Positions 9,803 to 58,718 of a stretch of 64,000 bases of DNA are shown in pieces (positions within the stretch are counted from its first letter, which is position 1; each line of letters starts with the position of its first letter). This stretch comes from an uncultured Saprospiraceae bacterium (lineage in GTDB: Bacteria > Bacteroidota > Bacteroidia > Chitinophagales > Saprospiraceae), in NCBI GenBank assembly GCA_938015805.1, contig CALLXF010000058.1:1-64000 (forward strand). The letters are read 5' to 3'. The translations under genes were made by a program, and so were the position numbers. The notes below the pieces were generated by a model. That model made no database searches and was not told the origin of the DNA. It saw only the letters and a program-made list of their open reading frames with translations.

Positions 9803-10417
9803 TCAGAGCTCTATCTGGCTAAAAACGTAAAACATCTCGCCTGCTATTTCCAGACTTTTATTTGCATAAACTTCCAGTTGCTCGGGCGTCCCATCAGAGA
9901 TCTTAGGATCGGTAAAACTAATCGGAATCCTTTTCTCTGCACCAGAGATTGCGGGGCAATTTTGATCTGCATCGCTGCAAGTCATAATCGCAGCATAGCC
10001 ATCTAAAGGATTAAAAGGATGATCGTATACTTTAGAAAAACTGATGATAGCATCCATATCTGCATCATACTTTATAGCATATATAGGATTAGAAGCAGGA
10101 GCTAAAGTGATGATTTTAAAACCCTGAGACTCAAGGGTGTCTTTTACGGCAGTATATAATGCGGTGGCCTCTGTCCCTCCAGAGTAACAAGACACATACC
10201 CTATATCAAACCAATACGCGGCAACTCTTGCCCATATCTGAGAAAGATGAGATCTACGAGAATTATGAGTACAAATAAAATTTAGTCGGATCTCTAATCC
10301 CTCATTTACCTTAGCCTGTATATAATCGACTAAAGGCTGTAAAACCTTCCGACGCTGCTCAGAAATCTCGTTTAAATGTAATCCCTCTACGGTTTTTATT
10401 AAATCATTATACAACAT
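9803..10417 (-). CDS. Low-molecular-weight phosphatase / ArsC-like protein
   Basis: A 204-residue protein with a low-molecular-weight tyrosine phosphatase fold. The P-loop near residue 49 reads CTHNSRRS, matching the CX5R(S) signature, and this family is also used by thioredoxin-coupled arsenate reductases. Later segments include SGGTEATALY and a CSDADQNCP region with extra cysteines that could serve as resolving thiols. It is divergent from arsM, which favours an arsenate-reduction role, but dephosphorylation of proteins or small molecules is possible. A TACCTTTG box at 10517-10524 could drive it with a long leader. Confidence 0.75.
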   Translation of the reverse strand: MLYNDLIKTVEGLHLNEISEQRRKVLQPLVDYIQAKVNEGLEIRLNFICTHNSRRSHLSQIWARVAAYWFDIGYVSCYSGGTEATALYTAVKDTLESQGFKIITLAPASNPIYAIKYDADMDAIISFSKVYDHPFNPLDGYAAIMTCSDADQNCPAISGAEKRIPISFTDPKISDGTPEQLEVYANKSLEIAGEMFYVFSQIEL

Positions 10418-10516
10418 AAATATTATAATTTTTCACCTCTATTTTAACCTTTCTAAAAAACTTAACCTATGAACTTAAAAGGTTTAAAATTGTAAGATAG
10501 ATATTAATTATTTAGG

Positions 10517-10524
10517 CAAAGGTA
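10517..10524 (-). promoter_or_regulatory. Putative -7 box for the phosphatase/ArsC-like gene
   Basis: The minus strand reads TACCTTTG, an exact TAnnTTTG match in the divergent arsM region. It would give a leader of about 90 bases. A near match on the plus strand, TAGCTTTA at 10552-10559, could serve arsM. No ArsR operator was recognised. Confidence 0.35.
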
Positions 10525-10578
10525 AAGACAAATTTCATGATCTATATTGCTTAGCTTTACATTACATTTAAGAAAAAG

Positions 10579-11631
10579 ATGGATACAAAACACGAAGAAG
10601 TAAAAGAGTACTACGGTAAAGAATTAACTCACTCTGATGATTTAAAAACCAATGCCTGTTGTACAATAGAAGAACCTCCTAAACATATCAAAGCGATTTT
10701 AGCAAAGATCCACGATGATGTAATAACAAAATACTACGGATGTGGTCTTACTATTCCTTATCAGCTAGAAGGCCTGAGGGTTTTAGACTTAGGCTCAGGT
10801 AGTGGAAGAGATTGTTACATTGCTTCTAAACTCGTAGGTCCTAATGGTCATGTAGTCGGTATAGATATGACAGATGAGCAACTGGCTGTCGCCAATGAGC
10901 ATATCGATTATCACATGGAGCAGTTTGGGTTTGATAAACCTAACGTCGAATTTATAAAAGGAAATATAGATGAGCTAGGAGAACTCGATTTAGAGGAAGG
11001 AAGTTTTGACCTGATCATATCTAACTGTGTAATAAACCTGGCGGTCGATAAACAGAAAGTCTTAAAAGATGCTTTTAAATTACTAAAGCCTGGAGGGGAG
11101 ATGTATTTTTCTGATGTATACGCAGATCGACGCGTACCGATTTCCCTGCAGAAAAATCCAGTGTTATGGGGCGAGTGCCTTAGTGGAGCATTATACTGGA
11201 ATGACTTTTTAAATTATTCTAAAAATGCTGGATTTACAGATCCTCGTGTAGTAGAAACTCATCCGATCACTGTCGAAAATAATGAACTCCAGGAACTTAT
11301 CGGAGACATCACTTTTTACTCTGTTACTTATCGCTTGTTTAAAATAGAAGGTTTAGAATCTGACTGCGAGGACTACGGTCAATCTGTTAGATATAAAGGA
11401 ACGATCAAAGGAAAAGAACATAGCTTTGATCTCGATGACCATCATCATTTCCCAAAAGGAAAAATGATAACGGTATGTGGCAATACGTATAAGATGTTAT
11501 CAGATACGCGACTTGCAGATGCCTTCGAATTTTTTGGAACATGGGATACGCATTACGGCATATTTGAAGGTTGTGGAGGAAGTAGTCCGTTTAACAATGT
11601 TACTTCCGAGGCTTCCGCTGATTGCTGCTAG
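10579..11631 (+). CDS. arsM: Arsenite S-adenosylmethionine methyltransferase
   Basis: A 350-residue ArsM that transfers methyl groups from SAM to arsenite to give methylated arsenicals. The SAM-binding motif VLDLGSGSGRD is near 67-77. The three arsenic-binding cysteines of the family are present: Cys55 in YYGCG, Cys150 in ISNCVINL and Cys200 in WGECLSG. A further Cys27-Cys28 pair and a terminal ADCC provide extra thiols. The C-terminal domain (about 240-340) matches the extended form of ArsM. The ATG at 10579 is well placed. It is divergent from the ArsC-like gene. No arsenite efflux pump or ArsR gene is in the window. Confidence 0.9.
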   Translation: MDTKHEEVKEYYGKELTHSDDLKTNACCTIEEPPKHIKAILAKIHDDVITKYYGCGLTIPYQLEGLRVLDLGSGSGRDCYIASKLVGPNGHVVGIDMTDEQLAVANEHIDYHMEQFGFDKPNVEFIKGNIDELGELDLEEGSFDLIISNCVINLAVDKQKVLKDAFKLLKPGGEMYFSDVYADRRVPISLQKNPVLWGECLSGALYWNDFLNYSKNAGFTDPRVVETHPITVENNELQELIGDITFYSVTYRLFKIEGLESDCEDYGQSVRYKGTIKGKEHSFDLDDHHHFPKGKMITVCGNTYKMLSDTRLADAFEFFGTWDTHYGIFEGCGGSSPFNNVTSEASADCC

Positions 11632-11875
11632 TTTAATCGTAGAAGTTTTCTGAAAGGCGGGATTTAAACATCATTTTATTTTTAGTTTCTAGCTAAATAC
11701 AATTTGCTGGATTTGAAGTTTAAAATCTATTCTCCTCAGGTAGAACAGTACATAGATTTCGAAGCCTTCATTTTATAAGTACATTATTTACAATTGTAAT
11801 ATTTTTATGTAGATAGAATGGATTTATTTCTGCTTTGCCAATGATAAAAAATACTGCAGTACATTATCCTAACAA

Positions 11876-12988
11876 TTATACTAAAGACAGTAAATATCCC
11901 AATACTCCTCCTCCTAAAATAAGATAGAGAGTATTGATCCCTTTATAGTAAAAGTAGATAAAAGTGCTTAAAGCAAAAATCAGAATTGTCCTCCAGTCGA
12001 TCAAAATACTTTCACCCATTTTTACTGTAACGACTACCATTACTGCTACGGCCGCAACATTTACTGCTTCTAAAAATGATCTTAATATGGCTGACTTTTG
12101 CATCTTTTTTACAAAATTATTAAGTATCCAAACGTAAAAAAAAGAAGGTAAAAAGATACCTAAGGTCGCTAATATAGCACCCGTAAATCCCCCCACTTTA
12201 TATCCTACAAAAGTTGCGGTAGACAATACTGGACCAGGAGTAACCTGTCCTATAGCGATTGCTTCTACGAGATCTGGATGAGTGAGCCACTCTGTTCCTT
12301 GTATGAGTTCTCCATCGAGATAAGCAAACAGTACATATCCACTTCCAAATAAAACTAAACCTACTTTTAAAAAAATCAAAAACAACTTAAGATGTGTGTA
12401 AGACATCTTAAGCAAAAACATAATTGGAAATAGAGCTACCGATGCAAAACCATCTCGCTTTATTGCTGCTCTAAGTAAAATCATAATGAGTCCAGCACTA
12501 AGAATCAGTACGATCTCATTTATGCCATAAAAGGCAAGTAAAATTACGATAAGGCCTATAATGACGTGGATATAATTCTTAACTGCTTTTTTTCCTAACT
12601 TTAAAATCGCTCCCAGGATAAATGAAATTACAGCTGCCTTAATCCCATTTACGATCGGAACTACCCATTCTATCTCACTAAATTTCTCAAAGAAAACAGC
12701 GATAAAAAGTGTAATGGCCACGGCAGGAATTATAAAACTCATCCCAGCTATAAACAGTCCTTTTACCCCAGCTCTGTGATATCCGCAGTGCATAGTCATC
12801 TCTGTAGAATTAGGACCTGGGATCAGGTTAGTAGCACCCATATAATCCAAAAACTCCTGTGAAGACAACCATTTTTTCTTCTCGACTAGATCGTCTTGCA
12901 TCATTGCGACATGTGCAGCAGGTCCTCCAAATGCAACAAACCCTAATCTTAAAAAATACTGAAATACTTCCTTTGCTGTTCCTTTCAT
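11876..12988 (-). CDS. Chromate transporter family protein (ChrA/CHR)
   Basis: A 370-residue polytopic membrane protein with the two CHR half-domains typical of long-chain chromate transporters. The first half begins with RLGFVAFGGPAAHVAMM and contains LIPGPNSTEM. The second has VGLVLFGSGYVLFAYL and GQVTPGPVLSTATFVGYKVGG. The paired PGP motifs and duplicated layout are the family signature. Known members export chromate with proton exchange; whether this one moves chromate is inferred. It follows the Na/Pi cotransporter gene by 76 bases, with an inverted repeat between them. Confidence 0.88.
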   Translation of the reverse strand: MKGTAKEVFQYFLRLGFVAFGGPAAHVAMMQDDLVEKKKWLSSQEFLDYMGATNLIPGPNSTEMTMHCGYHRAGVKGLFIAGMSFIIPAVAITLFIAVFFEKFSEIEWVVPIVNGIKAAVISFILGAILKLGKKAVKNYIHVIIGLIVILLAFYGINEIVLILSAGLIMILLRAAIKRDGFASVALFPIMFLLKMSYTHLKLFLIFLKVGLVLFGSGYVLFAYLDGELIQGTEWLTHPDLVEAIAIGQVTPGPVLSTATFVGYKVGGFTGAILATLGIFLPSFFYVWILNNFVKKMQKSAILRSFLEAVNVAAVAVMVVVTVKMGESILIDWRTILIFALSTFIYFYYKGINTLYLILGGGVLGYLLSLV

Positions 12989-13002
12989 GTTCTAATGATT
13001 TT

Positions 13003-13048
13003 AATAGTAGATCTTCAGAGTTATTCCCTAACCTGCTGATCTACTATT
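13003..13048. repeat. 11-bp inverted repeat between NptA-like and chrA genes
   Basis: AATAGTAGATC at 13003-13013 is complementary to 13038-13048, with a 24-base loop. On the minus strand no T run follows, so it is a poor terminator. It could be an intercistronic RNA structure or an operator for chrA. Confidence 0.45.
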
Positions 13049-13064
13049 TGCAATTTATGTATTC

Positions 13065-14879
13065 TTATATCTCACCTGCTACTGACTCATTTATATTTAC
13101 GATATGATCACCTACTCTCTCTAGAGAAGAGAAAAGGTTTGTAAATACCATTGCAGCGTTTACATTGTATCCTTCGCTGTTTATCATTTCCTGATTAAAC
13201 TTCCTCATAGAATTACGTTGTATATTAATCTCTTCTTCTAAATCGTAACATTTTCCTAAAGAAGCATCATCATAGGTTGATAAATTTAAATTACGATTCA
13301 TCTCGTCAAATGCTTTTTGAACAATGGCTATCAGCTCGTTTAATTGATTTCTTTGCTCTGGAGAAAAATAAATTTTACGATCTACTTTTGACTCCACGGC
13401 TTTCGCCAATTGGTAAAAGATATCTCCGATACGTTCCATGTCGTTACAAATATTAAAGAAGCTTCTCAGCCTTACACTAGTCTTATGTGTCATCTCCTTA
13501 TCAGACAAGTTGGTTATATACTCTGTGATTTCTTTCTCAAAATTATCCGTAATCTCTTCGTACTTTCTGATCTTAGCAATCAGTTTCATACTTTCTTTAT
13601 CATCAGAAGAGTTAATTAGCTCTTTACTAAATCCTAGCATTCTAGTAGCGATCTCTCCATAACGAGCAACCTCTTGTTGTAGCTCGACTGTTGCTAATTC
13701 TGGTGTTCTATTAGCCGCATTTATAAATTTCAATGTTTCCAGACCATCTTCTCCAGCTTTTTCTGGTACAGTCTTGATAGCCACTTTTATAAGCCATGGA
13801 ACAAATCCAATCAATAAAGCCACATTTAAGATATTAAAAACGGTATGGAAAGCGGCAAGTGTATAGGTATCTAGTCGTTGAGCATCTGTTAAATCCTCTG
13901 TTTTTATTTTTGCATTACTTTCAAATAAGCTAGAGAAATTCTCAACAAAAATACTTAAGTATTCTACTACAAAAGGTAAAAGTAAGACCATCCAAAAAAC
14001 CCCGATTATGTTAAAAAGAGAGTGAATTCTTGCAGATCTTTTAGACTGAGTATTCCCGATAATAGAAGCTAACTCAGCCGTTATAGTAGTCCCTATATTT
14101 TCTCCTAATACCATCGCAGCAGCCACTTCTAATGGCAACCATCCTGCATAGACTAAAGTCAATGTTATCGCCATTGCAGCAGATGATGATTGCACAATTA
14201 CTGTAATAAGTGCTCCTACTAGGACAAATAATATCCTTGAAAAAATTCCGTACTGAGACCACCCCTCTATAAATGCCAGTGCCTCTCCTCCTAAATCTGG
14301 AATCGCATTTTTCAAGAAAGAAAGTCCTAAAAATAAAATAGCAAAACCGATCAAAAATTCTCCCCAGTACTTTCTTTTACCTGTTTTAGAAAATAATAGT
14401 GGTACACCGATAGCAAATAAAGGAATAGAGTATGCACTTAGTTTTACTTTAAAACCAAGAATGGCAATAATCCATCCTGTAACGGTAGTTCCTATGTTTG
14501 CTCCCATCATAATACCTGCAGACTCTACTAAAGAGATTAACCCTGCATTTACAAATGAAACCGTCATTACAGTCGTAGCCGAAGAAGATTGTACTAATGC
14601 TGTTATTAGGAATCCAGTAAATACACCTAGATATCGATTTTTAGTCATCGTCCTCAAAATATTTCGCATTTGCGAACCAGCAGCTCTTTGGATTCCTTCG
14701 CTCATCATTTTCATACCAAAAATGAAAAAAGCCAGGGCTCCGAGAATTTCAAAAATCCCCATTATTCCAAAACTATCGCCTCCTTTACCCTTAGCCATCA
14801 TCTCCGTGGAGTGGAATATTACCAATACCATAATTAATGGTATGATCTTTATTACTTTGCTAGATAAAATTTTACTCAT
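13065..14879 (-). CDS. Na+/phosphate cotransporter with PhoU-like domain
   Basis: A 604-residue inner-membrane carrier. Residues about 35-370 hold two repeats of the Na/Pi cotransporter family, each with the QSSSA signature (QSSSATTVMTVSF and QSSSAAMAITLTL). Residues about 400-600 form a helical PhoU-like domain, as in the bacterial NptA/YjbB group. It would import (or in some homologues export) inorganic phosphate with sodium. The ATG at 14879 is 20 bases after the porin stop, so the two form an operon: the porin passes phosphate through the outer membrane, this protein through the inner one. The operon promoter carries a PHO-like box at 16147-16168. Confidence 0.9.
   Translation of the reverse strand: MSKILSSKVIKIIPLIMVLVIFHSTEMMAKGKGGDSFGIMGIFEILGALAFFIFGMKMMSEGIQRAAGSQMRNILRTMTKNRYLGVFTGFLITALVQSSSATTVMTVSFVNAGLISLVESAGIMMGANIGTTVTGWIIAILGFKVKLSAYSIPLFAIGVPLLFSKTGKRKYWGEFLIGFAILFLGLSFLKNAIPDLGGEALAFIEGWSQYGIFSRILFVLVGALITVIVQSSSAAMAITLTLVYAGWLPLEVAAAMVLGENIGTTITAELASIIGNTQSKRSARIHSLFNIIGVFWMVLLLPFVVEYLSIFVENFSSLFESNAKIKTEDLTDAQRLDTYTLAAFHTVFNILNVALLIGFVPWLIKVAIKTVPEKAGEDGLETLKFINAANRTPELATVELQQEVARYGEIATRMLGFSKELINSSDDKESMKLIAKIRKYEEITDNFEKEITEYITNLSDKEMTHKTSVRLRSFFNICNDMERIGDIFYQLAKAVESKVDRKIYFSPEQRNQLNELIAIVQKAFDEMNRNLNLSTYDDASLGKCYDLEEEINIQRNSMRKFNQEMINSEGYNVNAAMVFTNLFSSLERVGDHIVNINESVAGEI
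13398..13410 (-). repeat. Copy of iterated motif ATTGGCGAAAGCC
   Basis: Minus-strand copy inside the Na/Pi cotransporter gene, where it encodes Leu-Ala-Lys-Ala. See the finding on this motif. Confidence 0.7.
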
Positions 14880-14899: not shown

Positions 14900-16108
14900 T
14901 TAAAAATGGATGTCCATTTGCATTCTATAAATTAGATCATCATCACTTGTGGCGATAGATCTGTAGGTTATATCTGATTGTACTTTTAATTTATGACCCA
15001 CTATAAATTTTGATAATCCGAGTGTATACTGAGTTTCGTCACTGGCGACTCCTTCCTCTGGCTTTATATCTGTCCATCTTCCGGCAATCTCTACGTTATT
15101 TTTAAACATATATCCTAACGCTACGTTTACCCCAGTCCCCGTATAATAGGTTCCTATTTCCTCTCCTTCTGGACTAAATACTACTGGACCATCCGTAGTC
15201 GCCGTATTTGCATACTCGGCCATCAGCGATATCCCTTGGTATTTAAACATTAAATCTATATGTATATTAGTCAAGTCCTGACCTGAAAATGAGCCATCTC
15301 TATTTACAGGAATAAAACTTCCTTTACGACCTCTTTCTCTTCCTGCTGATTTATTTATATCGTAGGCAAATGCTATAGCTAGCTTAGGCTCGGTTTCTCT
15401 CTTTACTGCTGACCCAACATAAGCTCCCTTTGACTTAAATTGTCCAAATGGAAAAGCTTCTACTTTCATAGTAACAGATGAACCACCCACGTTAGCTGCT
15501 GTAATATTTTTACCTTCTCCTGAAGTCCATGCTACAGTTTCTTGTACTAAGAATTTCTGCCCAAAAGTGTGGTGATATTTTAGCATTATTCCGACATCAC
15601 GATCCAAGGTAAATCGGGAATTTAATCTAGACCGATCTACAAACTGTAAGTTCCCAGAGGAGACAACTCGCTCTCTATTACCAGGCAATTTTCCTTGACC
15701 AGCCCAAAGAGAAAAATTATTATAAAAATTCCACTCAATAGCAGCATCTAAAATAATATTAGCAGCATTACTAAAGTTATCACTATTTCCTCCTCCATTA
15801 TCTCTATTAGATAATGCTAACTCTGCTTTATACTTTAGTTTAGGTGTAAAAGCAAAACCGTTAAATTTCAATCTAGATCTTCTAATAAAAACCCTAGATG
15901 ACCGATCTTCTAAGGAGCCTAGATCGTCCTCTGCGACACTCCAGTCTGACTGGAACAAGGTCTGAAATCTAAATCCTATTTTCATTGTAAAAGAAGAATC
16001 TTGAGCTGTAATTTGTAGGCCTTTACCAAATTTCGGTGCTTTGATTTGGGCCGATATAAAACCTACCCATAAACAACACATTAGTGTTGTTAATAATTTA
16101 ATTTTCAT
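14900..16108 (-). CDS. Phosphate-selective porin, OprP/OprO type
   Basis: About 402 residues from the ATG at 16108. A TTG at 16120 would only add four residues before the signal peptide (MKIKLLTTLMCCLWVGFISAQ), so the ATG is preferred. The mature protein is an outer-membrane barrel with FTMKIGFRFQTLFQSDW, RSRLKFNGFAFTPKLKYKAEL and a terminal aromatic (IHF), all as in the OprO/OprP porin family. The family forms anion- or phosphate-selective trimeric channels. It is followed by the Na/Pi cotransporter 20 bases on. The promoter has a TACTTTTG -7 box with two exact 11-base TTAACATTGG repeats directly upstream, which suggests phosphate control. Confidence 0.87.
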   Translation of the reverse strand: MKIKLLTTLMCCLWVGFISAQIKAPKFGKGLQITAQDSSFTMKIGFRFQTLFQSDWSVAEDDLGSLEDRSSRVFIRRSRLKFNGFAFTPKLKYKAELALSNRDNGGGNSDNFSNAANIILDAAIEWNFYNNFSLWAGQGKLPGNRERVVSSGNLQFVDRSRLNSRFTLDRDVGIMLKYHHTFGQKFLVQETVAWTSGEGKNITAANVGGSSVTMKVEAFPFGQFKSKGAYVGSAVKRETEPKLAIAFAYDINKSAGRERGRKGSFIPVNRDGSFSGQDLTNIHIDLMFKYQGISLMAEYANTATTDGPVVFSPEGEEIGTYYTGTGVNVALGYMFKNNVEIAGRWTDIKPEEGVASDETQYTLGLSKFIVGHKLKVQSDITYRSIATSDDDLIYRMQMDIHF

Positions 16109-16133
16109 TGGAATTTGCAATTTTTTCCTGCGA

Positions 16134-16141
16134 CAAAAGTA
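16134..16141 (-). promoter_or_regulatory. -7 promoter box of the porin/NptA operon
   Basis: TACTTTTG on the minus strand, an exact TAnnTTTG match, 26 bases upstream of the porin ATG. The phased repeats end five bases upstream of it. Confidence 0.6.
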
Positions 16142-16146
16142 ATTTC

Positions 16147-16168
16147 TCCAATGTTAAGCCAATGTTAA
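16147..16168 (-). promoter_or_regulatory. PHO-box-like direct repeats, porin/NptA operon
   Basis: Two adjoining 11-mers on the minus strand, TTAACATTGGC then TTAACATTGGA, differ only in the last base. The 11-bp spacing puts both on one face of the helix. The layout resembles B. subtilis PhoP sites (TTAACA repeats) and the phase of E. coli PHO boxes. Its place just upstream of a -7 box, before a phosphate porin, fits an activator site. Confidence 0.65.
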
Positions 16169-16256: not shown

Positions 16257-17132
16257 TTATGGTAACAATAGAATTTGTAGTTTTTCAAAGTCTATATAGA
16301 TTTCCTTTATCGGAATCTGGTTTAAACTAATGATACCATCTATCTTGACATCTAACTCATCATTTATGGCTTTCAATTCAGTAATACCAAATTGTAAATT
16401 CTTGATGCCCATTTTCCCGAATTGTACTATCTCGATCACTACTGTCTGCTGGTGGGCTACCTCATTCTTATCAAGAGTGTGGACATTTACTGCGGCCGAG
16501 TTTTGGCTAAAAACAGAAGAATTAGCTTTTACTAGTTGGTTATTAATTACAGATACAGAAGATCCAGTATCGAGTCCAAACTTGTATTCCTTTCCATCAA
16601 TTTTTAATGGAACAATAGGAACACCATTTTCTAACCAAATTTTACTAGTGATAAACTGTTGACCACTAGTGTTTTTCACCTGATTACGATCTAAAATCTG
16701 GATGACATTATTTATGTTATCTATAAATAGAACTTCACCCTCTAAAAATCTAGTTCCTATAATTCCTAGCAATTTTTTATTCGTAAACTTTTCTACCGAC
16801 GATAAATCATATGCAAAGGCCTGAATATCATTTAAAACATAATTGCCTAGAGTAATTTTATTTACTACAATTTTTGAAGTGTTTATGGCACCTGTCAAAG
16901 TTTCGAATGCCAAAACATCATGCTGATCTACTTGCTTGTTAATAACTATAGCATCTGCTCCAGTGTCAAAAACGAAGTATCCTTCTTGCCCTTCTAACTC
17001 AGAGGCAATGAGCATTAGACCATCAGCTTTTACAAAAGGAATATGATAAAGGGGCTTAATATTACAATAGCCATAGACGCTAGAGCCTACAATAAAAGAA
17101 AGAGAAAAGAAAATGATTCGAATGAATGACAA
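16257..17132 (-). CDS. Exported retropepsin-like aspartyl protease
   Basis: A 291-residue protein with a signal peptide (about 1-20) and two lobes, each with a catalytic triad motif: FVFDTGADAIVI near 53-64 and FGLDTGSSVSVI near 184-195. This matches the two-domain aspartyl proteases (PF13650/PF13975) common in Bacteroidota. The only sensible start is TTG at 17132; an in-frame stop lies two codons upstream. The substrate is unknown. It stands alone between a terminator and the porin operon. Its promoter region contains four TTAACA-like repeats at exact 11-bp spacing (17189-17227), so it may belong to the same regulon as the phosphate genes. Confidence 0.82.
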   Translation of the reverse strand: MSFIRIIFFSLSFIVGSSVYGYCNIKPLYHIPFVKADGLMLIASELEGQEGYFVFDTGADAIVINKQVDQHDVLAFETLTGAINTSKIVVNKITLGNYVLNDIQAFAYDLSSVEKFTNKKLLGIIGTRFLEGEVLFIDNINNVIQILDRNQVKNTSGQQFITSKIWLENGVPIVPLKIDGKEYKFGLDTGSSVSVINNQLVKANSSVFSQNSAAVNVHTLDKNEVAHQQTVVIEIVQFGKMGIKNLQFGITELKAINDELDVKIDGIISLNQIPIKEIYIDFEKLQILLLP

Positions 17133-17188: not shown

Positions 17189-17227
17189 TTAACAATTTGG
17201 TAACATTGGCTTAATACTTAGATAACA
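17189..17227. promoter_or_regulatory. Four phased PHO-like repeats upstream of the protease
   Basis: On the plus strand TTAACA (17189), GTAACA (17200), TTAATA (17211) and ATAACA (17222) follow one another at exactly 11 bp. They face the opposite way to the porin repeats. The only gene start nearby is the protease at 17132, for which a weak -7 box (TGTTTTTG, minus strand, 17173-17180) lies next to the repeats. Confidence 0.6.
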
Positions 17228-17290
17228 TTGATATGCATTTACAGAGACTATATTATTGATAATGGTAACGCCTTTTTTGACTTAAAAAAG

Positions 17291-17414: not shown

Positions 17415-20270
17415 TTAAATAAATCTATAACTCAAGCCTAATGAAAATGATCTTCCCGGATCGAAGTTTTCAAAAAGCTGGTCTTGAGCATTAAATGATT
17501 CGTAATGTTTTGTTCTAGATGAATTCAAAATGTTATTTGTTCCGATAGAGAATTTTAATTTTTGATCCGTTCCCAATCTCTTAGAAGCTTTAAAGTTTAA
17601 ACCGTGAAAAGGATTCTCAAAAACGTCTGGCACATTAGAAATTCCTACGATAGAAAGTCTTTCTCCTTGTACGTTGTAAGACATATTTACTTCCAAGCCA
17701 GTTTCTCTTTCGACGTAAGTCAAACCTGCATTTACTAAATACGGAGACTGCCCTACCATTTGTCTGCTTCTATTGATTTCTTCTCCATCTCTTTGAGCTA
17801 ATAATCTTCCTTGGTATTCGTTTTCTGTCATTTTAACAGAAGAATAAACTAGTGTCGTATTAACGTTAAATACTAGGTTGGATAAATATTGGCTTAAGCC
17901 TCCTAAAGAATTTCTATACTCTAACTCTACTCCTAGTAGATCAGCATTACCTACATTACGAGGGGTAAAACTAGATGGTGCAGTCGCATCGAATGCAGTC
18001 AGTTCGATAGGATTTATAAAGTGTTTATAAAAACCACTCACGGATACCATGCTTCCTCCAGGCATAAAGTATTCCCATCTGACATCCGCGTTATAGACTT
18101 TTACATCTTCCAAATCTATATTACCGATAAATAACCTTCCTGAAATTCTATCAGCAATCTGTGCAATAGACTTCTCTTTAAATGTAGGTCTCGCTAAGGT
18201 CTTAGAAAATGATGCTCTTAAATTCATCGTTTTACCTTCTTCATCTCTAAGCACTTTTGTGATTCCTAAACTCGGTAAAAAATCCAGTTCATCTAAGACT
18301 AATCTATTCTCAAATAAGTCAGTCTGTGGGTTAGTGATAAATTGTTTTCTACCGGTATACCAGTTTTGAGCCTGCTCTACTCTTACGCCGTAAACGGCTT
18401 TCCATGTATCTCCGATTTCCATCTCGTTCATTACATAACCAGAGAATATCTGCTGTCTTGCCTCATAAGATTTGGAAGGTTCAAATGCTCCTTTGACGAA
18501 AGTCCCTTTATTATTTTCTGGCGTCCATATATTTTCCTCCATAAATAACTCATTAGGATTACCTGTAAAATCGTAAGTCCCTCTTTTATGAAATGCAAAA
18601 TTATAGTCCAGAATAGAGAAGTCTCTATTTTTATACACACCGTAAAAGCCAGTTTTTATTTTATGTTTAAGATTAGAACCATTATCGATCTTATAGCTAA
18701 CATCAAATCGTCCAGCATAATTTTGCTCCTCTAGATCTCTATAGGTTCTAGTCGGAATTCCTGCTGTAGATGGGTTTAGCTCGTATTCCCCAGAATCAGG
18801 ATTTATCTCATATGCTGTGAGTCTGATATCTGGCTCTGACATTTTAGATAGTGTCGGAGAGAGCTGCCAATTTACTTCTAGATTTCCGTCGCCTACGCTA
18901 TGCGTTCCTTTTACGAGGAAATTAGAAACAGATCTCTCGGTAAATTCGAGTACACTTTTTTCTAAGACTGACTGCCCAAATTCTTTTCTAGTACTGTTTA
19001 TAAAAGCAGCTCTAGATTCTCCATTTTGAGAATGTAAAGCACTAAACGAAATTTTATGTTTTTGAGTTTTAAAAGCTAAACCAGCCAAAGTACTCCAAAG
19101 CACATTATTAGATCCGATCTGTCCCTGATCACTACGATCGTTAAACAATTCGTTTACATTACTGTCATTTAAGTCTTTAAAGTAGATCCCGAAAGTAGCA
19201 TTATCGTAATACTCATATTCGTTTCTGTAATTTGCAGAAAAGGTATATCCTAAATCATATCCGTTTCCATTAATCTGGTTTCCATAAGACAAGGCGTAGT
19301 TGCTATTAAGACCACTTCTTTCCCTAAGTGTGCTCATGATAGGAGAAAAACTATTTGTCAGTGTTGTGAGATAAGAGGTGTTATTAGTTCTTTCTGGAAT
19401 ACTAGTGTAAGGATGTAATGGTAAATCTCGTGTCCCATCGTCCATTCCTAGCTTATCGGTTCCTCCACCTTGATAAGTGATATACTGAGAATTAAGATTC
19501 ATATCAGGATTATAAGAAGCACCTGCTGATATATTTAAAGTCTGCGTTTCAGGAAAATCCTTAGTTTCTATATTTACCATTCCTCCTGTAAAATCTCCAG
19601 GTAGGTCCGGGGTAAAAGATTTATAAACGATGATATTATCTATCAGATTAGTCGGAAAAATATCTAATTGCACGGAGTTACGATCAGGATCAAGTCCTGG
19701 AACATCTAGACCATTTAAAATCGTTTTAGAATAACGATCACCTAGACCTCGGACCACTACATGTTTACCTCCTTCCACAGATACCCCAGTCACTCTTTTT
19801 ACTGCTGATCCTACATCACTGTCACCCGATCTTCTGATTGCCTGAGTAGTTACTCCGTCTAAAAGTCCTGGAGCTTTTTTCTGTATCGTGAGCATAGCTG
19901 CCTCTGTATTTCTAAGAGCTTTGGCGGTAACTACTACTTCTGTTAGTACTTCGCTAGCCTCGCTGAGAGACATATCTAATGTGGTTACCTCCCCTTCTTT
20001 TACTAACACATCAGAAACTACTAACTCAGCGTAACCAATATAACTTGCTGTAAAAGTATAAGTTCCGATGGGCAGTTCTGCTGAGAAAACCCCATCTAAA
20101 TCAGTGGATACTCCACTACCTGTCTCTGTAATAAGGATGTTTGCAAATGGTATGGTCTCTCCATTAGTACCATCTAATAATGTACCTCTAACGGTACCCG
20201 ATTGTGCAATTAAAAACGTAGCACATAACATCAGGCATACTACGATAAAAGATTGTTGCAATTTTTTCAT
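17415..20270 (-). CDS. TonB-dependent outer-membrane receptor
   Basis: About 951 residues from the ATG at 20270; a TTG four codons upstream is less likely. After a signal peptide comes a carboxypeptidase-like regulatory domain (about 25-110, with GYAELVVSDV), then a plug (about 120-240, VVVRGLGDRYSKTILNG) and a 22-strand barrel ending in LGLSYRFI. There is no SusD partner. Instead, a lipoprotein gene lies 76 bases upstream on the same strand, with a hairpin between. The operon promoter carries five TTAA repeats, so I infer import of a phosphate-containing or similar substrate in scarcity; the ligand is not evident from sequence. Confidence 0.9.
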   Translation of the reverse strand: MKKLQQSFIVVCLMLCATFLIAQSGTVRGTLLDGTNGETIPFANILITETGSGVSTDLDGVFSAELPIGTYTFTASYIGYAELVVSDVLVKEGEVTTLDMSLSEASEVLTEVVVTAKALRNTEAAMLTIQKKAPGLLDGVTTQAIRRSGDSDVGSAVKRVTGVSVEGGKHVVVRGLGDRYSKTILNGLDVPGLDPDRNSVQLDIFPTNLIDNIIVYKSFTPDLPGDFTGGMVNIETKDFPETQTLNISAGASYNPDMNLNSQYITYQGGGTDKLGMDDGTRDLPLHPYTSIPERTNNTSYLTTLTNSFSPIMSTLRERSGLNSNYALSYGNQINGNGYDLGYTFSANYRNEYEYYDNATFGIYFKDLNDSNVNELFNDRSDQGQIGSNNVLWSTLAGLAFKTQKHKISFSALHSQNGESRAAFINSTRKEFGQSVLEKSVLEFTERSVSNFLVKGTHSVGDGNLEVNWQLSPTLSKMSEPDIRLTAYEINPDSGEYELNPSTAGIPTRTYRDLEEQNYAGRFDVSYKIDNGSNLKHKIKTGFYGVYKNRDFSILDYNFAFHKRGTYDFTGNPNELFMEENIWTPENNKGTFVKGAFEPSKSYEARQQIFSGYVMNEMEIGDTWKAVYGVRVEQAQNWYTGRKQFITNPQTDLFENRLVLDELDFLPSLGITKVLRDEEGKTMNLRASFSKTLARPTFKEKSIAQIADRISGRLFIGNIDLEDVKVYNADVRWEYFMPGGSMVSVSGFYKHFINPIELTAFDATAPSSFTPRNVGNADLLGVELEYRNSLGGLSQYLSNLVFNVNTTLVYSSVKMTENEYQGRLLAQRDGEEINRSRQMVGQSPYLVNAGLTYVERETGLEVNMSYNVQGERLSIVGISNVPDVFENPFHGLNFKASKRLGTDQKLKFSIGTNNILNSSRTKHYESFNAQDQLFENFDPGRSFSLGLSYRFI

Positions 20271-20293
20271 TATTCGTTTCAATTAAAGTAATA

Positions 20294-20346: not shown

Positions 20347-21768
20347 TTATAAATTTCCAGTTGCTTTAACCCATGACCAAGAATCAAAAACCGTAATATC
20401 TGCTCCTTTAGTGGCAGTAGAGTTATTATCATTATTAGCAGCACTTAAGATGTTTATGGCATCAGTTTGCATCATATCAGAGATGATACATTTCTCATCA
20501 TTTACGCAGTCTTTATCACCATACACATCCATCCAGTCTTCTACTGATACACCACCTACCCATTCTGAATTTTCGATTACTAAATTACCGTCGATATAGT
20601 TCTGGTAAGAATCAGACTTAGTCGTCATACAGTCACTCTCTTCACATGAGCTTCTAAGTTTTATATTATCTCCATAGCCTCTCCAAGATGCATTTCTGAT
20701 CGTACCTTGAGTTTTAGATTTTAAATCTGCAGCAGTATCGGCCTCTCCATCTTTGTCTATAAGCGTGATTCCATCAATCATAAAAAAGCCATCTGTAAGA
20801 GACCCTTCTGGACCATCTATTTCTAGTGCATTATCTCCTGCTGTAGCTCCAGACTGGATTACTACTGCATTAGTTATGGTTCCTGAGTAGTTCTGATCGA
20901 TATCTAATCCATCATCTTCTCCGTATGCAACAACTACATTAGAACAGTTTACTGTTCCTCCAAACCACTCGACACCGTCATCTAGATTTGCAACTACTTC
21001 GATATTTTCCACTACAGTTCCGTTTCCTACACCACCAAAAGTGATCCCATTTATCTCATTATCTGCACCTATAGAAATCCCTCCATGTCTTACAGAAACA
21101 TATCTTATCACACCAGAGTTATCCGCTGGATCATTACCACCGTACTCACCGATTCCTTCGCCTGGAGGAAGACCTTCGATGAGGGCTTCGTTATCACCAT
21201 CAGCAGCAGAAATAGGAGCTTTACCTAGTATTATTAATCCTCCCCATAACTGATTATCAAATTCGTCTAAATTAGGAGATACAATCTGACCAGATACAAT
21301 CTGATCTGTAACAGAAGTAAAAATAATAGGCTCTGAGGATGTACCTTGAGCAAATAGTTTTGCCCCTCTAGCGATAACTAAAGCAGAGGCTAACGTACCT
21401 GGATCATCCTCTCCTTTTATAACCGTACCTGCTTCTATGGTAAGGGTACAACCATCCGTTACGATCACTTTACCAGAAAGTACATATATCTTATCTTTTG
21501 TCCATGTTTCTGAACAATCTAAAATTCCTGATTTAGTAATTACGGACGATCCTGAATTATCCTCTATACAGTCGCAGTTAGCTGTTAAGATTTCTCCTGC
21601 AGCACAGGTTATCCCATCACATGGATTAATAGCTACACAATTACAATTAATATCTAGAACTTCCCCAGACGCACATGTCGTTGTACAGTCTGCACTATCA
21701 TCACCACAAGCTACCGCAAATGTTATTAGGCCGATTGCAAGGAATAAAAGTTTTAATGTTTTTAGCAT
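20347..21768 (-). CDS. Cys-rich lipoprotein with beta-helix-like body
   Basis: A 473-residue lipoprotein: the lipobox LITFAVACGDD puts the lipidated cysteine at about residue 21. Two copies of a mini-motif, C-x3-C-x2-GE-x5-NCxC, follow (about 28-67). The body (about 75-470) has GVISGxx/VIARGAKLFAQGTSSEPIIFTS segments typical of right-handed parallel beta-helix proteins. I recognise it as a family often encoded beside TonB receptors in Bacteroidota, but no function is established. Probably it is a surface-exposed partner that captures or processes the receptor's ligand. It is the first gene of the operon, with a strong -7 box at 21843-21850 and PHO-like repeats above it. Confidence 0.7.
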   Translation of the reverse strand: MLKTLKLLFLAIGLITFAVACGDDSADCTTTCASGEVLDINCNCVAINPCDGITCAAGEILTANCDCIEDNSGSSVITKSGILDCSETWTKDKIYVLSGKVIVTDGCTLTIEAGTVIKGEDDPGTLASALVIARGAKLFAQGTSSEPIIFTSVTDQIVSGQIVSPNLDEFDNQLWGGLIILGKAPISAADGDNEALIEGLPPGEGIGEYGGNDPADNSGVIRYVSVRHGGISIGADNEINGITFGGVGNGTVVENIEVVANLDDGVEWFGGTVNCSNVVVAYGEDDGLDIDQNYSGTITNAVVIQSGATAGDNALEIDGPEGSLTDGFFMIDGITLIDKDGEADTAADLKSKTQGTIRNASWRGYGDNIKLRSSCEESDCMTTKSDSYQNYIDGNLVIENSEWVGGVSVEDWMDVYGDKDCVNDEKCIISDMMQTDAINILSAANNDNNSTATKGADITVFDSWSWVKATGNL

Positions 21769-21842: not shown

Positions 21843-21850
21843 CAAAAGTA
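21843..21850 (-). promoter_or_regulatory. -7 promoter box, lipoprotein/TonB receptor operon
   Basis: TACTTTTG on the minus strand, identical to the porin promoter box. The nearest TTAA repeat begins 23 bases upstream, the same distance as at 58670/58693. Confidence 0.6.
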
Positions 21851-21865
21851 GGAGGTGTATATGCA

Positions 21866-21930
21866 CTGAGCGTTAAGGCAATATTAACTGTAGGTTAAGA
21901 ATGTATCTTTAGTTCTTAACGGTGGCTTAA
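21866..21930 (-). promoter_or_regulatory. Five phased PHO-like repeats, lipoprotein/receptor operon
   Basis: Read on the minus strand: TTAAGCCACCG, TTAAGAACTAA, a 10-base gap, TTAACCTACAG, TTAATATTGCC, TTAACGCTCAG. TTAA falls at 21927, 21916, 21895, 21884 and 21873, i.e. steps of 11, 21, 11 and 11. The last two 11-mers match 17 of 22 bases of the element at 58697-58718. They lie just upstream of the -7 box. Confidence 0.65.
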
Positions 21931-22008
21931 CAAAGGACGGAGGTAACTATTTTTAATATATAAACTATTGATTAACAATCCTCACAACACTTAACAAGAT
22001 ATTAGCGT

Positions 22009-58368: not shown

Positions 58369-58641
58369 TTAATCAAAGTTTAGATGCCCTTTATCGATAT
58401 CCAAAGGTTTATTGACAATTTTTATCACTGTGCTACAGGTATCTATATGCTCATATATTTTTTCCAACTCCAGTTGTATAGCAGGCATGATATCGTTCCA
58501 TTCTCCGGAGACTTGTGTACTCATGGCGTTAGTAAAGACTTGTAAAGCAGACCGTTGCTTTAAACCTTTTATGAAGTCAATAATCGGTTTTTCGTAATGG
58601 GGAGTAAAAGGATAGAGACTTATTTCTAGGGTTACTTTCAT
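58369..58641 (-). CDS. Thiamine-binding (YkoF/MTH1187-like) protein
   Basis: A 90-residue cytoplasmic protein with VTLEISLYPFTPHYEKPIIDFIKGL at the front and TCSTVIKIVN later, the core of the MTH1187/YkoF thiamine-binding fold. Known members bind thiamine or hydroxymethylpyrimidine; the ligand here is inferred. It is preceded by a strong TAAATTTG -7 box (58663-58670) and three phased TTAA-type repeats (58686-58718), so it seems to share regulation with the phosphate genes far upstream. Confidence 0.75.
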   Translation of the reverse strand: MKVTLEISLYPFTPHYEKPIIDFIKGLKQRSALQVFTNAMSTQVSGEWNDIMPAIQLELEKIYEHIDTCSTVIKIVNKPLDIDKGHLNFD

Positions 58642-58662: not shown

Positions 58663-58670
58663 CAAATTTA
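58663..58670 (-). promoter_or_regulatory. -7 promoter box for the thiamine-binding-like gene
   Basis: TAAATTTG on the minus strand, an exact TAnnTTTG match 22 bases above the ATG. The TTAA of the nearest repeat begins 23 bases away, the same spacing as at 21850/21873. Confidence 0.6.
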
Positions 58671-58685
58671 ATAGTAATTTATATG

Positions 58686-58718
58686 ATGGGAGTTAATCGA
58701 GCGTTAAGCTAATATCAA
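58686..58718 (-). promoter_or_regulatory. PHO-box-like repeats, thiamine-binding-like gene
   Basis: On the minus strand TTGATATTAGC, TTAACGCTCGA and TTAACTCCCAT adjoin without gaps. The first two match 17 of 22 bases of the lipoprotein promoter element at 21866-21887, including TTAACGCTC exactly. Confidence 0.6.

Follow-up and report, generated by a model that had tools for sequence, protein, structure and literature searches.

The window analysed here, i.e., the whole stretch of 64,000 nucleotides at the start of an 83-kb contig from an uncultured Saprospiraceae bacterium (genome of 3.59 Mb, 98.8% complete, 36% GC), carries arrays of an 11-bp unit, TTAACATTnnn, that recur upstream of orthologous genes in relatives and across the phylum Bacteroidota and keep a constant phase to the Bacteroidota promoter box TAnnTTTG. 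From these comparisons we conclude that the phosphate-starvation regulator PhoB very probably binds at the repeated TTAA units ahead of the phosphate-uptake genes, which would make the units a Pho box and the genes behind them a Pho regulon. The case for a real element rests on conservation and on the constant spacing to the promoter box.

Arrays in the window and the genes behind them

A preliminary description of this DNA had noted TTAA-headed 11-mers at four places and proposed a PhoB-like activator for the genes behind them. The letters alone prove nothing, as bare TTAA triples at 11-bp steps occur four times genome-wide, the same number as for a reversed control pattern, and their count was rejected as evidence; a unit matrix was therefore built from other genomes (62 arrays preceding orthologs of the porin, the lipoprotein and phoB, own genome excluded). 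Six window positions score at least 15 with this matrix, where 0.125 are expected in first-order shuffles, and they fall at exactly the four places noted before, i.e., the porin/NptA operon (26.3), an aspartic protease gene (20.0 and 19.2), the lipoprotein/TonB-receptor operon (18.7 and 17.8) and a site at 58.7 kb (15.1). The genome was also examined by patterns and by stretches, and since the candidates that this search gave elsewhere are mostly out of phase, intragenic or upstream of unrelated genes, we claim no complete regulon for it. The features of the lipoprotein operon are as follows.

21866-21898, minus strand: three direct 11-bp units, TTAACCTACAG TTAATATTGCC TTAACGCTCAG (single-unit scores 10.0, 8.7 and 9.1), the predicted forward Pho-box array
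21843-21850, minus strand: Bacteroidota -7 box, TACTTTTG, 26 bp from the last unit
21916-21937, plus strand: inverted unit pair, TTAACGGTGGC TTAACAAAGGA (score 13.1 on the plus strand), pointing away from the lipoprotein gene
20347-21768, minus strand: beta-helix (pectin-lyase-like) lipoprotein of 473 aa (AlphaFold pLDDT 84.7; Foldseek)
17415-20282, minus strand: TonB-dependent receptor, downstream of the lipoprotein gene (Pfam Plug/CarbopepD_reg_2)

On its coding strand this promoter reads TTAACCTACAG TTAATATTGCC TTAACGCTCAG, 15 bases, TACTTTTG (21898 down to 21843). All five TTAA starts listed earlier (21873, 21884, 21895, 21916 and 21927) are found, and most of them follow 11-bp steps; the step from 21895 to 21916 is, however, 21 bp and not 22, a phase break explained by the last two units forming the inverted pair on the other strand, so that three of the five, rather than all, make up one direct array. 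The forward arrays are retained in orthologous promoters, and the inverted pair is conserved in the relatives G001, G002, G003 and G035.

No Pfam or NCBIfam family was matched by the lipoprotein, and its Foldseek matches, all of them weak, are parallel beta-helix proteins of the pectin-lyase fold. Nearly all of 80 named loci have the TonB receptor gene after that of the lipoprotein. In 13 relatives, phoB and the lipoprotein gene are no more than 7.5 kb apart (usually within 1 kb), and the two are close together in many named loci as well. The lipoprotein/TonB pair very likely constitutes a phosphate-limitation system, because a similar pair of TonB-dependent receptor (TBDT) and lipoprotein in Flavobacterium johnsoniae is strongly induced at phosphate depletion. 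In some relatives (G017, G026 and G048), open frames of 1000-1700 residues contain the beta-helix domain in tandem repeats. One locus labelled Verrucomicrobia (L225, JAFMKE010000143.1) holds a Bacteroidota lipoprotein/TonB pair and is seemingly identical to the 4429-base contig G074:C37 of a same-order relative; its label looks wrong.

The features of the porin/NptA operon are the following.

16147-16168, minus strand: two direct units, TTAACATTGGC TTAACATTGGA, the predicted Pho box with the highest matrix score in the window
16134-16141, minus strand: -7 box, TACTTTTG, 16 bp from the last unit
14900-16120, minus strand: porin O/P-type outer-membrane porin (PF07396), single copy in the genome
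13065-14879, minus strand: NptA-type Na/Pi cotransporter with C-terminal PhoU domains (PF02690 and PF01895)

Both exact copies of the unit reported here are present, and the promoter runs TTAACATTGGC TTAACATTGGA, 5 bases, TACTTTTG (16168 down to 16134), with orthologs in many genera. NptA carries the only PhoU domains of the genome. Within the genus, the phosphate genes cluster with an ArsM-like arsenite methyltransferase, an ArsC-like protein and a ChrA chromate transporter (window 9803-14879; L295, L296, L297 and L299), i.e., oxyanion uptake beside arsenate and chromate handling.

The other two places differ from these operons in orientation or in conservation.

17189-17232, plus strand: four units, TTAACAATTTG GTAACATTGGC TTAATACTTAG ATAACATTGAT, upstream of the protease gene and on the opposite strand
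16257-17132, minus strand: aspartic (retropepsin-like) protease (PF13650), behind the reversed array
58686-58718, minus strand: three units, TTGATATTAGC TTAACGCTCGA TTAACTCCCAT, a candidate site that is not conserved
58663-58670, minus strand: promoter box, TAAATTTG, 26 bp from the array
58369-58641, minus strand: thiamine-binding-like (PF01910/YkoF-related) protein of 90 aa, downstream of the array

The protease array is real, but two of its four supposedly TTAA-headed units begin with GTAA and ATAA. In 6/6 genomes (our own, G001, G002, G003, G037 and G022; loci L293, L294, L295, L296 and L297 together with the window) it scores from 16 to 26 and its strand is opposite to that of the gene, with a weak TAtaTTTr-like box immediately downstream of the array, and in G003 the divergent gene at this array is ArsM-like. 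The reversal in all six led us to reject simple activation of the protease by PhoB, so that the proposed control by a PhoB-like activator keeps its direct-repeat element and its regulator and loses this target in its simple form. The reversed array may instead serve repression, other contacts or the gene on its other side. TAnnTTTG boxes had been described for the porin, lipoprotein and 58.7-kb sets, and all three are present (16134-16141, 21843-21850 and 58663-58670). The equal distance claimed between array and box at the latter two promoters holds (26 bp in both), although the figure of 23 bp to the nearest TTAA should read 22 bases between the two. At 58.7 kb two units are headed by TTAA and one begins with TTGA; the array is in phase and scores above threshold, but it is absent from the corresponding intergenic regions of the genus orthologs compared (G001 and G002), and we rejected it as a conserved member of the regulon: it is a recent gain or chance.

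Conservation and promoter geometry

Upstream regions of orthologs were drawn from up to 81 relatives and compared with 163 intergenic regions that are unrelated to them and come from the same genomes. TTAA pairs in the ortholog regions show a sharp excess at 11 bp over other spacings (in the lipoprotein set also at 22 bp). Such 11-bp pairs precede 13/20 porin, 23/29 lipoprotein and 18/28 phoB orthologs as against 11/163 controls, and TTAA triples are found in 15 of the 29 lipoprotein promoters and in none of the 163 controls. A matrix derived from one gene family detects the other two with AUC values of 0.84-0.98, at step 11 only. In a second lipoprotein set, taken from named genomes (Flavobacteriia, Cytophagia, Bacteroidales and others) after removal of the recognised training loci, though with a few Saprospiraceae relatives remaining, 60 of 75 promoters score above 10 compared with 3 of the 163 controls, and the median score of 13.2 at step 11 falls to 2.9 or less at any other step tested.

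The porin/NptA operon, phoB in 18 of 28 relatives and some pst operons have the array where a Pho box is expected, before phosphate-acquisition genes and phoB, with a weak array at our own phoB. The family PF12849 was dropped as a marker of PstS, for gene neighbourhoods suggest that many of its matches are not Pst proteins, and PstC was used for the phylum-wide comparison for this reason. Of 30 pst loci from across the phylum, 5 are preceded by a strong array in the 1.5 kb before them, compared with 1 when the reverse direction is scored, and a group of related pst loci shows the weaker form TTAACRATTTG ATAAT. The enrichment test that the preliminary description proposed for phosphate genes finds no pst or separate phoU gene in this genome; applied to relatives and the phylum, it succeeds for phoB and in part for pst. 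The phosphate role assigned there to the porin/NptA and lipoprotein/TonB operons is supported by the ortholog arrays, by the linkage to phoB and by the F. johnsoniae data of PMC8115612.

Across genomes the unit repeats directly with a period of 11 bp; positions 1-8 of the matrix are informative and 9-11 weak, step 11 alone gives high scores, and the arrangement corresponds to the seven conserved and four weak bases of a Pho box. The distance from the start of the last unit to TAnnTTTG is 15, 16, 26, 27, 37 or 38 bp in 24/24 measurable cases of the porin, lipoprotein and phoB families, that is, 15/16 or, equivalently, 4 or 5 modulo 11. The second lipoprotein set gives 15, 26, 27 or 37 bp in 7/9 cases and 57 and 60 bp in the other two. 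This is the set place directly upstream of a -10/-7 box that is expected of a Pho box, and judging from these distances the array is fixed on one helix face relative to the -7 box, where it appears to replace the -33 element.

The regulator, the proposed mechanism and the rival explanations

The genome encodes four OmpR-type regulators, one of which is PhoB-like and adjoins a candidate kinase.

Contig C3, L029:5725-6417: PhoB-like regulator, best NCBIfam matches Bacteroides PhoB and general PhoB
L029:4694-5722: PhoR-like kinase, best match to PnpS/PhoR models

The regulator has the domains of a PhoB, i.e., a receiver and an OmpR-type DNA-binding domain (PF00072 and PF00486). Its two best matches (NF053854, 209.8 of 270 bits; TIGR02154, 203.1 of 296.2) stay below the equivalog cut-offs, as does the kinase in its own family, and it is thus PhoB-like rather than a certified equivalog. 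Of all solved structures, those of E. coli PhoB (1qqi, the DNA complex 1gxp, and 3t72) come closest to its DNA-binding domain. In the alignment with 1gxp the pattern DRT.DVHIR.LR ... QT..G.GY.F is kept with two Arg-to-Lys changes, so that the recognition region, including what we take to be the DNA-contact residues of E. coli PhoB in that structure, is largely retained. Our phoBR genes lie apart from the lipoprotein cluster, and the array upstream of phoB is weak (TTAATACATTG ATAACATGGAA, score 11.8), with no TAnnTTTG in phase.

As a whole, the explanation that we hold to be highly likely is that the 11-bp units are Pho boxes bound by PhoB, which would switch on the porin/NptA and lipoprotein/TonB operons. 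Under phosphate scarcity PhoR would phosphorylate PhoB, whose protomers would each occupy an 11-bp unit and align head-to-tail along a single face of the DNA; such a row directly upstream of TAnnTTTG (at 15/16 + 11n bp) would recruit RNA polymerase at the usual -33 position. Switching on the porin/NptA operon would bring phosphate across the outer and inner membranes, while the lipoprotein/TonB operon would capture and take up a phosphorus-containing ligand.

Three other OmpR-family regulators are present, and the arrays could be bound by one of them and govern outer-membrane transport rather than phosphate as such. Direct repeats of 10-11 bp are common in this family, the lipoprotein, the TonB receptor and the porin are all surface proteins, and some array-bearing genomes gave no match to PhoB at a strict threshold (G072 and G037 carry good arrays and no PhoB at E <= 1e-60, with 35 of 45 candidates scored in G037). 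However, arrays also stand before phoB in relatives and before some pst operons, whose products are not surface proteins, and the 13 relatives in which phoB neighbours the lipoprotein gene likewise speak for PhoB; we consider control by another OmpR-type regulator unlikely.

Alternatively, the arrays might be no regulator site but an AT-rich upstream element, phased with the helix, that strong Bacteroidota promoters have in general. Their position directly upstream of TAnnTTTG in helical phase fits such a reading, which nevertheless appears very improbable, as three of the 163 intergenic controls score above 10 and the unit has polarity and non-A/T information in its conserved C at position 5. 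That the repeats arose by chance in an AT-rich genome would agree with the equal triple counts of the two patterns, but conservation in dozens of genera, the specificity for step 11, the phase-lock to the -7 box and the control sets leave chance a vanishingly small share. The porin and lipoprotein sites already refute it, and at the non-conserved 58.7-kb site it may still apply.

Returning to PhoB as the predicted regulator, the genome holds neither PstS nor PstC at the above completeness and no separate PhoU, the PhoU domains being found within NptA, so that an E. coli-type Pst-PhoU-PhoR system (PstSCAB with PhoU) is not present in it. About 35 of 49 genomes of the family encode PhoB and no PF12849 (PstS-like) protein. 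We tentatively postulate, as a possibility against which the balance still tips, a Pho regulon that works without Pst or separate PhoU: the PhoU domains fused to NptA would signal phosphate flux to PhoR, and PhoB arrays would act in both orientations, the forward ones activating and the conserved reversed array at the protease repressing or driving an opposing transcript.

Comparison with known phosphate regulons

The element appears to work like a Pho box and has the sequence features by which one can be recognised; it is of a known kind, and its Bacteroidota form is apparently undescribed. No earlier Bacteroidota Pho box came up in a literature search outside which most subscription papers fell, and novelty is provisional for this reason. 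In F. johnsoniae, the available excerpts of PMC8115612 describe a PhoBR/PUSIV cluster (Fjoh_0541-0549) with the order OprP-PhoR-PhoB-TBDT-lipoprotein FII (pectin-lyase fold), in which the TBDT and lipoprotein FII beside phoBR are strongly induced when phosphate is depleted (listed transcript changes 8.02 and 9.91); its authors propose organic phosphorus as the ligand, and those excerpts contain no cis-element. Our lipoprotein/TonB pair is like the PUSIV/FII pair in predicted fold and gene order and may correspond to Fjoh_0545/0546; phoBR linkage is seen in relatives, whereas our own phoBR is unlinked and our own cluster comes with NptA, ChrA, ArsM and ArsC-like genes. A fellow Bacteroidota PhoB, that of Bacteroides fragilis (BF1576), binds the pstC promoter directly, at a site left undefined in the available part of PMC3547664.

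In soils, seas and guts, Bacteroidota are the dominant degraders of polymers, and as far as our literature search shows, earlier descriptions covered the regulator and the induced proteins only. A consensus for their Pho box (TTAACATTnnn, two to four copies, 15/16 + 11n bp before TAnnTTTG) would let genomes reveal phosphate regulons directly, and it would connect phosphate limitation with a beta-helix lipoprotein/TonB-receptor pair that is widespread. It raises, too, the question of how PhoR senses phosphate without Pst and PhoU, which together with the reversed arrays is of more interest to us than the element itself.

Bacillus subtilis PhoP binds TTAACA-type repeats with a spacing of about 11 bp, i.e., with the same core and phase as generally described, at Gram-positive promoters. 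The E. coli Pho box (CTGTCAT) consists of 11-bp direct repeats with seven conserved and four less conserved bases (PMC4415409, PMC1906773) and is placed about 10 bp upstream of the -10 (PMC1906773). Our element shares with it the 11-bp repeats, the 7 + 4 layout, the position just upstream of the -10 region and the DNA-binding domain of the regulator, but its unit is TTAACATT and not CTGTCAT, its promoter box is TAnnTTTG, and it stands in a genome with neither PstSCAB nor separate PhoU. The cyanobacterial SphR box (CTTAACCT, at least three tandem 8-mers; PMC1906773) belongs to another phylum, promoter type and set of targets, yet its core (TTAAC) is nearly identical to ours, and its 8 bp plus 3 bp give the same 11-bp phase (PMC1906773).
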